Notes under the pieces: generated by a model
Seen by the model: the letters and a program-made list of their open reading frames with translations, nothing else
What the model was told of the DNA's origin: nothing
Databases searched by the model: none
Translations under genes and position numbers: made by a program
DNA from: Desulfobulbaceae bacterium
GTDB taxonomy: Bacteria > Desulfobacterota > Desulfobulbia > Desulfobulbales > Desulfobulbaceae
Assembly: GCA_011391865.1 (NCBI GenBank)
Contig: JAABPV010000014.1
Location: 11,155 to 48,641, forward strand
DNA length: 37,487 bases
Direction: 5' to 3'
Shown here: positions 25,163-32,241 of the stretch, in pieces
How the letters are laid out: each line of letters opens with the position of its first letter
How positions within the stretch are numbered: the stretch's first letter is position 1

Positions 25163-25579
25163 TCAACCATTCCCTTGCAGGTTGTCCAAGATGCCGTTGA
25201 TGAAGCCGACTGAATCCGGCTCGGCGTAGCGTTTGGCGATTTCCAATGCCTCGTTGATGGCGACAGTCGCCGGGACATCCTCGCCGTGCTTGATCTCGTA
25301 GGCGGCGATGCGGAGGATGTTGCGGTCAACAGCGGCCATGCGCTCCACCCGCCAGTTGTGGGAGGAACTGGAAAGTAGGTTGTCAATTTCTTTCCGATAC
25401 TGGCAAATACCGACAATGAGTTGTTCAGCATACGGAATGGACTTGGCATCCGCCTGAAAAGAGATGCAAAATGCATTCACGCGGTCCAGCAGCTCTTCTT
25501 CGCCGCAGGAGCCTTCCTGCACGTCGTGGCCGTAGAGGAACTGGAGGGCCAGTTCCCGTGATTTTCGTCGCAATCCCAT
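25163..25579 (-). CDS. nusB: Transcription antitermination protein NusB
   Basis: RNA-binding partner of S10 (NusE) that recognises boxA in rRNA operons. A 138-aa all-helical protein: RRKSRELALQFLYGHDVQ at the N-terminus, MAAVDRNILRIAAYEIKH in the middle and PATVAINEALEIAKRYAEPD then GFINGILDNL at the end, all typical. It overlaps the ribH stop by one base and closes the riboflavin cluster, the usual ribH-nusB arrangement. Confidence 0.95.
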   Translation of the reverse strand: MGLRRKSRELALQFLYGHDVQEGSCGEEELLDRVNAFCISFQADAKSIPYAEQLIVGICQYRKEIDNLLSSSSHNWRVERMAAVDRNILRIAAYEIKHGEDVPATVAINEALEIAKRYAEPDSVGFINGILDNLQGNG

Positions 25580-26043
25580 TAGAGCTGATTGATCAGGCTG
25601 ATCATTTCCAAAGCCGCCACTGCCACGTCCGCGCCCTTGTTGCCCGCCTTGGTTCCGGCCCGCTCAATCGCCTGCTCAATGGATTCGGTGGTCAACACCC
25701 CGAAAAGCACCGGAATGCCCGTGTCCAGCATGACCTGCGCACTGCCTTTGGCGACCTCGTTGGCGACAAAATCAAAATGCGGCGTTGCGCCCCGGATGAC
25801 CACGCCAAGACAGATGACCGCGTCATATTTGCCGGAGCGGGCCATTTTTTGTGTGGCAAGTGGAATCTCAAATGCGCCAGGCACCCGCGCCACGTCAATG
25901 TCATCGCCCTTCACGCCGGAGCGCGTCAGGATGTCCAATGCGCCCTCAAGCAGCTTTTCCGAGATGAAGGAATTGAAGCGGGAAACCACAATCCCGATCT
26001 TGCGCCCGTTGCCTTGCAGACTGCCTTCGATGAAGTTTGCCAT
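25579..26043 (-). CDS. ribH: 6,7-dimethyl-8-ribityllumazine synthase
   Basis: Condenses the ribitylamino-pyrimidine with dihydroxybutanone phosphate to form lumazine, the substrate of riboflavin synthase. A 154-aa protein with [61 protein letters not shown] and the loop [20 protein letters not shown]. All active-site stretches are conserved. It sits upstream of nusB and is separated from ribBA by the ATPase/TOPRIM pair. Confidence 0.96.
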
Positions 26044-26070
26044 TATACGTAATCCCTATCCTGTGCTTGT

Positions 26071-26667
26071 TTAAAAAAAGATTTCAATTTTTTTGAGGGC
26101 GCGGGCAAGACTTGGAGCTGATGCCGCCGCTGCCTGCGGATTCCAACAGTCACGCACATACCTTGTCAGCTCGGTGTTGTAACCAAGGCCAATCGGTCTG
26201 CTGGATGTTTTTTCAGGCAGAATCATCGCCTTCAATTCTCGTTTTTTGCTCCGGTCAACTAAACGAAGCAGCTCCCTTTTTGGATCGTCAAGCCTTTCCG
26301 GCTCCGCAGGAACAAGGTCCGCAGATATGCCAAGCCAGTTCGCAAATGTCCGCCTGTCGGCCATCAGCCACGCTTCAACTTCGCGCACAGCCACTCGGAA
26401 CAGCAGCCGTTCTGATAAATCCAAGCCTTTCCGCCAATCACGTATGAAATCTACAACGCATTGTGCCGCATCCAAGTCTGTAAGCAGAAAAACGGGCATG
26501 ACATTGGCGGCAACTTGATTAAACTTGGGCAAGTTTGTCTTCAGATAACCGTATCCGTCCCTTCTCAGTCGTTGAGCGATTTGCACTGTTTTACCCGAAG
26601 CCGTCAGCAGTTTCTCTGCCGCCGCTTCAGACAAAACATCTTCTGTCGCCAAGCAAATGCGGATCAT
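26071..26667 (-). CDS. TOPRIM-like partner protein (DUF4276-type)
   Basis: A 198-aa protein. The N-terminus has a short strand followed by E9 in CLATEDVLSEAAAEKLL, and a DxD pair lies in VFLLTDLDAAQC (D64, D66). An acidic motif follows in VREVEAWLMAD (E96, E98). Glu followed by DxD is the TOPRIM order, and VRE-x-EAWL-x-AD is typical of DUF4276-like proteins found beside AAA ATPases. It lacks the classic VEGxTE start of DUF4276, so family membership is tentative. Its ATG overlaps the ATPase stop as TGATG, so the two are translated together. A metal-dependent nuclease controlled by the ATPase is the likely role (inference). Confidence 0.65.
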   Translation of the reverse strand: MIRICLATEDVLSEAAAEKLLTASGKTVQIAQRLRRDGYGYLKTNLPKFNQVAANVMPVFLLTDLDAAQCVVDFIRDWRKGLDLSERLLFRVAVREVEAWLMADRRTFANWLGISADLVPAEPERLDDPKRELLRLVDRSKKRELKAMILPEKTSSRPIGLGYNTELTRYVRDCWNPQAAAASAPSLARALKKIEIFF

Positions 26668-27821
26668 CAGAACAGACTCAACTGCTCAATGCCCTGCGGC
26701 CTGACTTTGGGCAGCAGTACTTCCGCCGCAGAGAAACCAGCATCCACAACAGCAAGCTCCTCCTTGTCCGGCGGACGGATGCGGGTTCCTTCCGCTCCGG
26801 GTTCAAGCAGCAGAATTGCGCGACTGTCAATGCCATGATTGTTCAGCAGCGCATCGCTGTGGGTGCTGATCAGCACTTGCCGTTTATATTTGCTTATCCG
26901 CTGGATGCGCTGGATCAGCTCAGGAATGCGCTCGACAATCGCATTGTTGAGCGACAGCTCCGGCTCTTCCAGCAGCAGCAGCGAATCCCCTTCAAAAAGC
27001 ATCCACAGCAAGGCCAGCAGCCGCAGGGTGCCGTCAGAAAATTGATCTTCCCGCTGCCATGCGCCGCGTGGCCGGTGATGCTCATACAAAGCCTCTAGAT
27101 GCGGGTGGCCTTTAAACTCATCTTTTTTAAAACGCAGCTCATCGAAACGCGGCACAGCAACTTTTAAAGCCGCTTGAATATGTTTCAAGCGAGAGTTGCG
27201 AGTTCTTTCATTGACACTGGCAATGCGTTCTAAAAACTTTTGGCCGAAGGGATCATTCTCCAGCATGTTTCCGCCGATTCTGCCGCTATGCTTCAGTAGC
27301 TGCGGAACAAGGTGCAAATACGTGGTAGCGGAAAAAAATTCACTGACTTTTCGGAACCCTTTGTTAGAGCTGATCTGCTCTAAATACGTCTGCGTCAGGC
27401 GTTCAGGGTCGAGTTCATCTTCTTTATCCGGTCGACTGAGGATAACCGCACCGTTTTTGCTGACGATTTCCTTTGTCAGCTTGATGCGCTGACGGCCTTT
27501 GCCTTCCGCTTTGAAGCCAAGTGCGTATTGCCAAGCCGGCTCCGCATCAGCTACTTCGGCCAAATCCACCTCAATCATAACCTCGGTGTCATTGCGGGCG
27601 TGCAGACAGCGCAGCTTGCTGATGCCGCCCCGGTCGTCCGTCACCGCCTTTTGCAGCCCCCCGCCGGAAGGCTTGGCCACATCCCGCAAAAAGCGAAACA
27701 CATCAAGGAAGTTAGATTTGCCGGAAGCATTCGGGCCGATCAGATAGGTCTGCGGATAAAGCGGAATATCCGCATCACGGAAGTTTTTCCAGTTCTTGAG
27801 CTTGACACGGGTTATGAACAT
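26667..27821 (-). CDS. AAA_21-type ABC-like ATPase
   Basis: A 384-aa SMC/OLD-style ATPase. The N-terminus reads MFITRVKLKNWKNFRDADIP, and the Walker A motif is GPNASGKSN (residues 29-37). An ABC-like signature FSDGTLRLLAL lies near 265, Walker B LLLLEEPELSL near 285, and the switch histidine in STHSDALL near 321. The insert between the Walker motifs is short and helical, not a long coiled coil. No nuclease domain is fused; the small TOPRIM-like protein is encoded directly downstream with a 1-base overlap. This two-gene form recalls anti-phage ATPase/TOPRIM pairs such as PARIS, but the partner differs. It begins 25 bases after the ribBA stop, inside the rib operon. GAGG lies before the ATG. 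Confidence 0.88.
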   Translation of the reverse strand: MFITRVKLKNWKNFRDADIPLYPQTYLIGPNASGKSNFLDVFRFLRDVAKPSGGGLQKAVTDDRGGISKLRCLHARNDTEVMIEVDLAEVADAEPAWQYALGFKAEGKGRQRIKLTKEIVSKNGAVILSRPDKEDELDPERLTQTYLEQISSNKGFRKVSEFFSATTYLHLVPQLLKHSGRIGGNMLENDPFGQKFLERIASVNERTRNSRLKHIQAALKVAVPRFDELRFKKDEFKGHPHLEALYEHHRPRGAWQREDQFSDGTLRLLALLWMLFEGDSLLLLEEPELSLNNAIVERIPELIQRIQRISKYKRQVLISTHSDALLNNHGIDSRAILLLEPGAEGTRIRPPDKEELAVVDAGFSAAEVLLPKVRPQGIEQLSLF

Positions 27822-27846
27822 AGCGCAGCCTCTGCCCGCACGTTTC

Positions 27847-29091
27847 TCACGGCTCCCCAGCCACCGGATCTTGCGGCTCGTCGCCGTACAGCTCCAGCAG
27901 GTGGCCCATTTTGTCGCGCTTACAGCGGAGATATTCCCTTGTCTCGCATTCGCAGACCATCTCTATCGGCAGGCGAGCGACCGCCTCCAAGCCGTAGCCT
28001 TCCAAACCGATGAGCTTTTTCGGGTTATTGGTCAGCAGACGCATCTTGCGCACGCCAAGATCACGGAGAATCTGCGCTCCGAGGCCGTAATCGCGCAAAT
28101 CAGGCTTAAAGCCAAGATGAACATTGGCCTCAACCGTATCCATTCCTTCTTCATCCTGAAGCTGATAGGCCCGCAGTTTGTTGACTAGGCCAATTCCCCG
28201 GCCTTCCTGCCGCATGTAGAGAATCACGCCCTTGCCTTCCTGATCCACCATTTTCATAGCAGCCTGAAGCTGCGAGCCACAATCACAGCGGGCGGAACCG
28301 AACACGTCACCGGTCAGGCACTCGGAATGCACCCGCACCATCACCGGCTCGTCCGGGCTGATTTCACCCTTGACCAAGGCGATGTGTTCAAAATCATCCA
28401 CCTCGTTTTTGTAGGCGATGATTTTAAATTCGCCCGCATGGGAGGTTGGCAGCCGCGCCTCCGCCACCCGATGCACCAGCACGTCCTCGCGCAGGCGGTA
28501 GGCAACCAGATCAGCGACCGTGGCAATCTTCAGGCCGTGTTTTTCGGCGAAACTCTCCAAATCCGGCATCCGGGCCATTGTGCCGTCATCCTTCATGATC
28601 TCGCAGATAACACCGGCTGTCCGCAGCCCGGCAAGGCGGGCCAAATCAACCGAGCCTTCAGTCTGACCAGTGCGCACCAGCACCCCGCCTTTGCGCGCCC
28701 GCAGCGGGAAAATGTGACCGGGGCTGATGATGTCGCGGGGAGTCGCGTCCGGGGCTGCGGCGGCCAAGATGGTTCGGGCGCGGTCGGCGGCGGAAATGCC
28801 GGTGGTCACGCCGGTGCGGGCCTCAATGCTGATGGTGAAGCCGGTGCCGTAGGGCGACTGATTGTTCTGCACCATCATCGGCAGACCAAGCTGGTCAATG
28901 ATATCAGGACTCAAGGTCAGGCAGATCAGACCGCGTCCGTGGGTGGCCATGAAATTGATCGCCTCTGGCGTGACCGCTGTGGCGGCCATGCAAAGATCGC
29001 CCTCGTTCTCCCGGTCCTCATCATCCACGAGGATAATCATTTTCCCGGCCCTGATGTCTTGTATCGCCTCTTCGATGGAACAGACCGCCAT
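27847..29091 (-). CDS. ribBA: Bifunctional 3,4-dihydroxy-2-butanone-4-phosphate synthase / GTP cyclohydrolase II
   Basis: Makes both precursors of lumazine. The N-terminal domain (about residues 1-200) shows VDDEDRENEGDLCMAA, THGRGLICLTL and SPGHIFPLRARKGGVL. The C-terminal GTP cyclohydrolase II domain shows VRVHSECLTGDVFGSARCDCG (zinc cysteines), YMRQEGRGIGLVNKLRAYQLQ and KMRLLTNNPKKLIGLEGYG. Both domains look complete, 414 aa in total. It lies between ribE and the ATPase gene on the minus strand. Confidence 0.96.
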   Translation of the reverse strand: MAVCSIEEAIQDIRAGKMIILVDDEDRENEGDLCMAATAVTPEAINFMATHGRGLICLTLSPDIIDQLGLPMMVQNNQSPYGTGFTISIEARTGVTTGISAADRARTILAAAAPDATPRDIISPGHIFPLRARKGGVLVRTGQTEGSVDLARLAGLRTAGVICEIMKDDGTMARMPDLESFAEKHGLKIATVADLVAYRLREDVLVHRVAEARLPTSHAGEFKIIAYKNEVDDFEHIALVKGEISPDEPVMVRVHSECLTGDVFGSARCDCGSQLQAAMKMVDQEGKGVILYMRQEGRGIGLVNKLRAYQLQDEEGMDTVEANVHLGFKPDLRDYGLGAQILRDLGVRKMRLLTNNPKKLIGLEGYGLEAVARLPIEMVCECETREYLRCKRDKMGHLLELYGDEPQDPVAGEP

Positions 29092-31737: not shown

Positions 31738-31884
31738 GGGGAAAAACGCAGCCCCGCGCTTATCCCGCCGACTTCGATAAAAATACAATTTATAATACTC
31801 TGTAGCGGAGAGGATTGCAATATCTTGAACAACTGCCAAACTGCTCCGTCCAGCCTCTGCCGCTATGCGAAGAAAAAACATTGT

Positions 31885-32241
31885 TAGATCTCTTGCATAA
31901 GCCGCAAATGAAGCGATGCCGGGCCGGTGGAGGGGCTTGCCCGCGCTTATCCTGCCGAAGCTGGAGGAGTGTTCCCGCTCTGGACGCGGGGACGAGACGC
32001 AACTCCCCTTCCGTCCGCCCCCAAAACATACTGGATAGTATCCCCAATACTATATAGTATGTACCAGTAATACCATATAGTATGTTTCGGAAAACATACT
32101 GGTATGTACCGGCAGTACATACTATATGGTTTCTATAATACATACTGGATGGTTTCCGAAAAACATACCAGATGGGTAAAAATCTTTCGTCCCCATGCCA
32201 GACCGGCATTGCTCGATTCGCGGTTTATGCAAGGAGGTCTA
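31885..32241. mobile_element. MITE-like element with terminal inverted repeats and TA ends
   Basis: About 357 bp bounded by imperfect inverted repeats of about 37 bases: left 31886-31922 and right 32203-32240 (inverted). The shared core is AGAYCTC, then TTGCATAARCCGC, RAAT and finally RATGCCGG; roughly 30 of 37 positions agree. Both ends are flanked by TA, compatible with a TA target duplication as made by IS630/Tc1-type transposases. There is no transposase gene; inside are a GC-rich left part and a 23-bp array. The right TA plus the first base of the repeat form the TAG stop of the carbonic anhydrase gene. I infer a non-autonomous element; no second copy is in this window. Confidence 0.65.
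32027..32177. repeat. 23-bp degenerate array 4 inside the MITE-like element
   Basis: Seven units starting with CATAC-type motifs at 32027, 32046, 32069, 32095, 32118, 32141 and 32164: mostly 23 bases apart, with one short (19) and one long (26) step. Units contain palindromic cores, for example the perfect 14-base ATACTATATAGTAT at 32047. The array is very AT-rich within GC-rich surroundings. A period that is not a multiple of three argues against coding use. Confidence 0.75.

Follow-up and report, generated by a model that had tools for sequence, protein, structure and literature searches.

A HEC-01 gene pair between the riboflavin genes of a Desulfobulbaceae bacterium, with a clamp-like peptide at the end of its ATPase

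The DNA analysed here, referred to below as the window, is a stretch of 37,487 nt from a Desulfobulbaceae bacterium (contig JAABPV010000014.1, positions 11,155 to 48,641), which carries on its minus strand the genes ribE-ribBA-A-B-ribH-nusB, in this order. Gene A (26667..27821) encodes an ABC/AAA_21 ATPase of 384 aa, and gene B (26071..26667) a DUF4276-like protein of 198 aa with a predicted TOPRIM fold; both assignments rest on the open reading frames, Pfam, PADLOC and structure models, together with alignment for A and conservation for B. As a preliminary description of this stretch had reported, the pair sits between ribBA (27847..29091, minus strand), which ends 25 nt before A, and ribH (25579..26043, minus strand), which begins 27 nt after B and runs into nusB. 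It had also been described correctly that A and B share a single base (26667, minus strand), at which the stop codon of A (TGA) and the start codon of B (ATG) merge into TGATG, an arrangement that suggests translational coupling. Neither a terminator nor a promoter-like site was found on the strand of the pair between ribBA and B; with no room or signal for a promoter or terminator of its own, the A-B pair is most likely co-transcribed with the riboflavin genes. Control of this operon by an FMN riboswitch was rejected, as an Rfam scan returned zero RNA families at threshold anywhere in the window. Elsewhere in the window, at 31790-32209, lies an isolated ORF of 139 aa, whose start is repetitive and tyrosine-rich (YYRNHIVCTAGTYQYVFRNILYGITGTYYIV) and which may be a short repeat region rather than a gene.

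Sequence and alignment place in protein A the Walker A motif GPNASGKS (residues 29-36; 27714..27737, minus strand), the signature FSDGT (residues 261-265), the Walker B motif LLLLEEP (residues 281-287, with E285/E286; 26961..26981, minus strand) and the switch histidine H321 (26859..26861, minus strand). Across 86 homologues, these core residues show little or no variation, and the protein matches Pfam AAA_21 (E = 9e-38), bearing out the complete ATPase that had been read from the letters alone. Among solved folds, its AlphaFold model (pLDDT 87.7) comes closest to PtuA from Septu/retron complexes, to the heads of SMC/Rad50 proteins and to AriA (Z about 19-21.5), and A is thus a Rad50/PtuA/AriA-like ABC ATPase.

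In protein B, the glutamate and DxD in TOPRIM order that the preliminary description had pointed out are E9 (26641..26643, minus strand) and D64-L-D66 (26470..26478, minus strand). Conservation was examined in a set of 80 homologues, in which the others are 30-65% identical to the window protein; E9, D64 and D66 are invariant across this range of identity, and their presence is therefore not due to chance. The remaining positions that never vary are E98, W100, K130 (26278..26280, minus strand), G160, Y163, W175, S186 and L187. E98 belongs to an E96-x-E98 element (26374..26382, minus strand) in the first turns of the helix that follows strand 4 of the model. This model is of high confidence (pLDDT 96.8), and its order of elements (strand-helix-strand-helices-strand-helix-strand, then helices) fits TOPRIM. 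Its best solved neighbour is the C-terminal TOPRIM region of the Burkholderia OLD protein (6nk8; Z 9.0, 165 of 198 residues aligned), followed by that of Xanthomonas OLD (Z 8.1), the OLD alignments spanning 155-165 residues, and by AriB of PARIS (8v46_D; Z 7.3); the retron Eco2 effector ranks further down the fold table. Foldseek also points to OLD, but weakly (best E 3.5e-3), and a sequence search of the PDB with B found zero relatives at E up to 1. We therefore predict, as the earlier suggestion of a TOPRIM-like protein implied, that B folds as a TOPRIM protein whose nearest structural kin are the nuclease domains of OLD and AriB of PARIS.

The two-metal site of Burkholderia OLD is made up of E400, E404, D455, D457, T506 and E508 (PMC6755086). 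Residues E9, D64, D66 and E98 of B match E400, D455, D457 and E508 of that protein in order, a correspondence of order and not of coordinates; E98 starts the helix after strand 4, and E508 likewise lies within a helical domain, making E96-x-E98 a candidate counterpart of T506-x-E508. Lumazine synthases also appear in the fold table of B (Z 5-7). Descent of B from the neighbouring RibH was nevertheless rejected, since these matches are generic and rank below OLD, and the TOPRIM residues are kept in B.

Both proteins belong to a catalogued family. A matches the PADLOC model HEC-01A (PDLC04180) over residues 1-383 of 384 (E = 1.2e-149), and B matches HEC-01B (PDLC04194) over residues 3-195 of 198 (E = 4.3e-60); the HEC-01B models (PDLC04194/04193/04197) are matched by all 80 of the B homologues. 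With A and its adjacent partner each matched over their length, as HEC-01 is defined, the pair is a member of this catalogued candidate system, and the proposal that it represents an undescribed module does not hold. The acronym is given as Hma-embedded candidate in passages of two papers that cite the 'guilt-by-embedding' work (PMC12988326, PMC11411939), and a strain of Desulfovibrio piger is listed with a HEC-01 (PMC12724379). A literature search, with the original HEC preprint outside its reach, found no described activity or mechanism for HEC-01. The preliminary description had further set B apart from DUF4276 for lack of the VEGxTE start. That motif is indeed missing in literal form, with ATEDVLSE in its place, and VEGPTDE occupies this position in one homologue (L008). 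The separation itself did not stand: B scores 27.6 bits against DUF4276 (PF14103; E = 4e-6, residues 15-126), below the gathering cut-off of 30.2, and 74 of the 80 homologues match the family at E < 0.01 (best 5.9e-9). Profile searches of B with E up to 1 gave matches limited to the HEC-01 models and DUF4276, and B is, by sequence, a divergent DUF4276 protein.

The survey of genomic neighbourhoods that had been proposed revealed a conserved two-gene unit in many settings. In 85 of 91 loci B comes immediately after A, mostly with a spacing of -19 to +13 nt, and none of the 91 loci has a natural A-B fusion. In three loci (L114, L116 and L123), the B gene beside A looks broken or missing. The best 80 genomic relatives are mostly from Pseudomonadota, with further members in Thermodesulfobacteriota, Synergistota, Actinomycetota, Planctomycetota and Myxococcota. 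Most copies of the pair are solitary, with unrelated genes around them. Among proteins of up to 700 aa, defence families were no more frequent in the genes nearest the pair than at a distance of 5.5-10 kb (58 and 55 PADLOC families matched, respectively, with at most 2 of 137 proteins for any one family), indicating that most copies lie outside defence islands. Scanning large flanking proteins beyond this size limit made visible a second setting, in which the pair lies in or beside large restriction-type or Hma genes (about 12 of 84 loci). These include a locus with the order HmaA-[A-B]-HmaB and intergenic spacings of 1 and 13 nt (L073), another in which the pair occurs with HmaC (L041), about 8 loci with the order type III methylase-[A-B]-helicase-like gene, and one with a type III restriction enzyme (L047). 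The Hma embedding that gave HEC-01 its name is thus now seen for this clade, in relatives and not in the window itself. With a TOPRIM-like fold and with restriction and Hma settings among the relatives, the outcome that the preliminary description had set against its defence reading (a fold other than TOPRIM, or a pair confined to the neighbourhood of rib genes and unconnected to defence loci) was absent. In four loci (L042:11779-14586, L062, L074 and L080), the gene that comes after the pair and the accompanying type III methylase encodes a protein of 930-960 aa with a SLIINSPY-like start, which matched no PADLOC model at E 1e-20 and may be an uncatalogued restriction partner.

Compared with known systems, the window pair resembles HEC-01 in the end-to-end matches of both proteins, in gene order and, through its relative L073, in Hma embedding; it differs in lying within a riboflavin operon, with no defence cluster, and in the clamp-like tail that we record for its clade. 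PARIS (AriA and AriB, class 4 OLD) likewise encodes the ABC ATPase and the TOPRIM protein as separate genes, and both subunits are alike in fold to A and B (Z about 19-20 for AriA, 7.3 for AriB). However, B has no sequence match to the AriB (DUF4435) models, and A matches HEC-01A (E 1e-149) far better than AriA (E 1e-32). OLD proteins of classes 1-3 and GajA of Gabija share the ATPase superfamily and the order E, DxD, E of the TOPRIM active site, whereas here, in the window as in the relatives, the ATPase and the nuclease are two different polypeptides; the window pair also has no UvrD helicase or reverse transcriptase partner. PtuA chains of Septu and retrons are the nearest solved structures to A, but PtuB is an HNH nuclease and B is TOPRIM-like.

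The space between ribBA and ribH (26044-27846 in the window) is a cargo site, occupied here by the HEC-01 pair and with counterparts in four other genomes of the genus (L029, L030, L031 and L032). The interval measures 666-2135 nt in all 5 genus genomes examined, and 23-501 nt, judged from coordinates, in the family's remaining 41 genomes with the two genes next to each other. The site edges are identical across the 5 genomes, and the cargo differs in each: besides the window pair, it consists of a MazE/PemK toxin-antitoxin (MazEF), of a small protein with a D12 adenine methylase and MazE/PemK, of HicAB with a 276-aa protein, or of a zinc-ribbon/DnaJ-domain protein. Short mazEF-like stretches persist beside otherwise different cargo in two of the genomes (G002 and G004). 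Replacement through recombination between the conserved rib flanks is a likely history for this site, which was perhaps founded by MazEF. The pair is absent from four sister species and present in 7 of 96 relatives, and in the tree the window A groups with a gammaproteobacterial homologue (77% identity, support 100/99), apart from those of its own order. This absence from the sister species, together with the gammaproteobacterial affinity, indicates horizontal acquisition of the window pair.

A ends in the pentapeptide QLSLF (residues 380-384; 26670..26684, minus strand). Peptides that bind the sliding clamp have the consensus QL(S/D)LF, with QLxLF as the high-affinity form, and the window tail satisfies the client consensus Q-phi-x-[LM]-[FL], of which QLxLF is the best version (PMC11139829); such peptides are often the last residues of a protein, transposases included (PMC4549789). 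The tail is conserved in the clade as QLxL[FW]. A strict form of the motif, Q[LM]x[LF][FW] within the last 14 residues, occurs in 59 of 90 A proteins and in 1 of 533 control proteins encoded at these loci, and a looser form in 67/90 and 2/533, respectively; because related sequences are not independent, these ratios reflect conservation rather than many origins. Clamp-like tails were found in 2 of 1102 proteins of a wider control set drawn from the loci, and the strict motif was not found in the bodies of the A proteins. Across the tree, the tail is kept in most of the clade, with 14 changes. Its commonest form is QLGLW; one clamp peptide became weaker when the phenylalanine at position 5 of the motif was changed to tryptophan (PMC11139829), and the QLPLWG of ImuB, a parallel for QLGLW, works (PMC10421592). 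The possibility that the tail is homologous to the common C-terminal 'SLGDLW' helix of AAA_21 ATPases was rejected, as the counterpart of that helix in the alignment is SVAEVVL, which precedes the tail. This clamp-like tail is a feature newly recorded here and, as far as our literature search shows, unreported; a search combining sliding clamp and anti-phage defence found no paper.

Two explanations of the tail compete. Tentatively, and with somewhat less than even confidence, we propose that a whole clade of HEC-01 systems rides the sliding clamp through QLxL[FW], so that an ATPase-gated TOPRIM nuclease would reach replicating phage DNA or be set off there. Peptides of this kind end the DnaN clients Pol II, Pol IV and transposases, which A resembles in having the consensus at its extreme C-terminus and from which it differs in that clamp binding by HEC-01A is deduced from its residues. 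To the alternative, in which QLxL[FW] is a structured part of the C-terminus, packed against A itself or serving as the docking surface for B, we would likewise give a chance just short of even. The tail appears in the AlphaFold model of A as a short helix (378-383) with a pLDDT of about 82-86, and may therefore be an ordered element and not a free peptide; the structural matches to PtuA reach the last residue of A; and several homologues carry near-motifs that lack the glutamine or a leucine (HLGLF, QWTLF and GLGLF). Against such an element, what is kept at the extreme C-terminus is Gln-Leu-x-Leu-Phe/Trp, which goes beyond mere hydrophobicity, and in the alignment it follows a variable linker, beyond the C-terminal helix shared by the family. 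The middle position is most commonly glycine, a poor helix former, and the strict motif is absent from the other AAA_21 ATPases of the relatives, most of which have small partner genes of their own.

Taken as a whole, the pair is in our reading (probability roughly 70%) a horizontally acquired HEC-01 system, an ATPase-gated TOPRIM nuclease that is probably anti-phage and possibly clamp-tethered. The reading is built on the gene pair, its motifs, the fold prediction, conservation, horizontal spread and embedding in restriction operons. In the mechanism that we infer, A most likely associates with B and keeps it in check or in position; infection would be sensed as a phage-induced change that shifts the nucleotide or conformational state of A; and B, as a two-metal TOPRIM nuclease, would be released or switched on and would cut DNA or RNA, stopping the infection. 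Analogues for B are OLD, which cuts DNA, and AriB, which cuts tRNA upon release by AriA (PMC12409363). The QLxL[FW] peptide of A may in addition dock on DnaN, placing the complex at replicating DNA or forks.

It is unlikely that the pair instead targets plasmids or other mobile DNA, or acts as a self-maintaining element of the toxin-antitoxin kind, in which B would be the toxin and A the antitoxin. The insertion site shared with MazEF and HicAB modules would agree with such a role, as would the solitary position of the pair among unrelated genes in most genomes and the PDB names that call AriA an antitoxin; yet placement between restriction and Hma genes points to immunity, and plasmid records gave zero matches to A at E 1e-30. 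Phage records gave zero matches to the pair at E 1e-20, and a few IMG/VR contigs carry it. Least probable is a housekeeping factor of DNA repair or replication quality that merely travels horizontally: a clamp-like tail and a Rad50/SMC-like head would suit repair, and Cran1, an OLD relative from archaea, has a cell-cycle function (PMC12796447), but the patchy distribution (7/96 relatives, 0/4 sister species), the variable site and the embedding among restriction genes speak against it.

The window thus holds a catalogued candidate system in an unusual place. The variable ribBA-ribH site indicates that immune and toxin-antitoxin cargo can inhabit a core biosynthetic operon, beyond defence islands. 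ATPase-nuclease pairs of the HEC-01/DUF4276 type are widespread and we found no described mechanism for them; the clamp-like tail offers a concrete, testable idea, which, if true, would amount to a clamp-docked immune complex.

Two further proteins of the relatives carry clamp-like peptides. The D12 adenine methylase at the ribBA-ribH site (L029:4143-5054) has EQLSLFE near its C-terminus, and a different AAA_21 ATPase (L149, genome G007), which is followed by another small partner gene, ends in QLSLLDLPEKK, a looser clamp-like tail.
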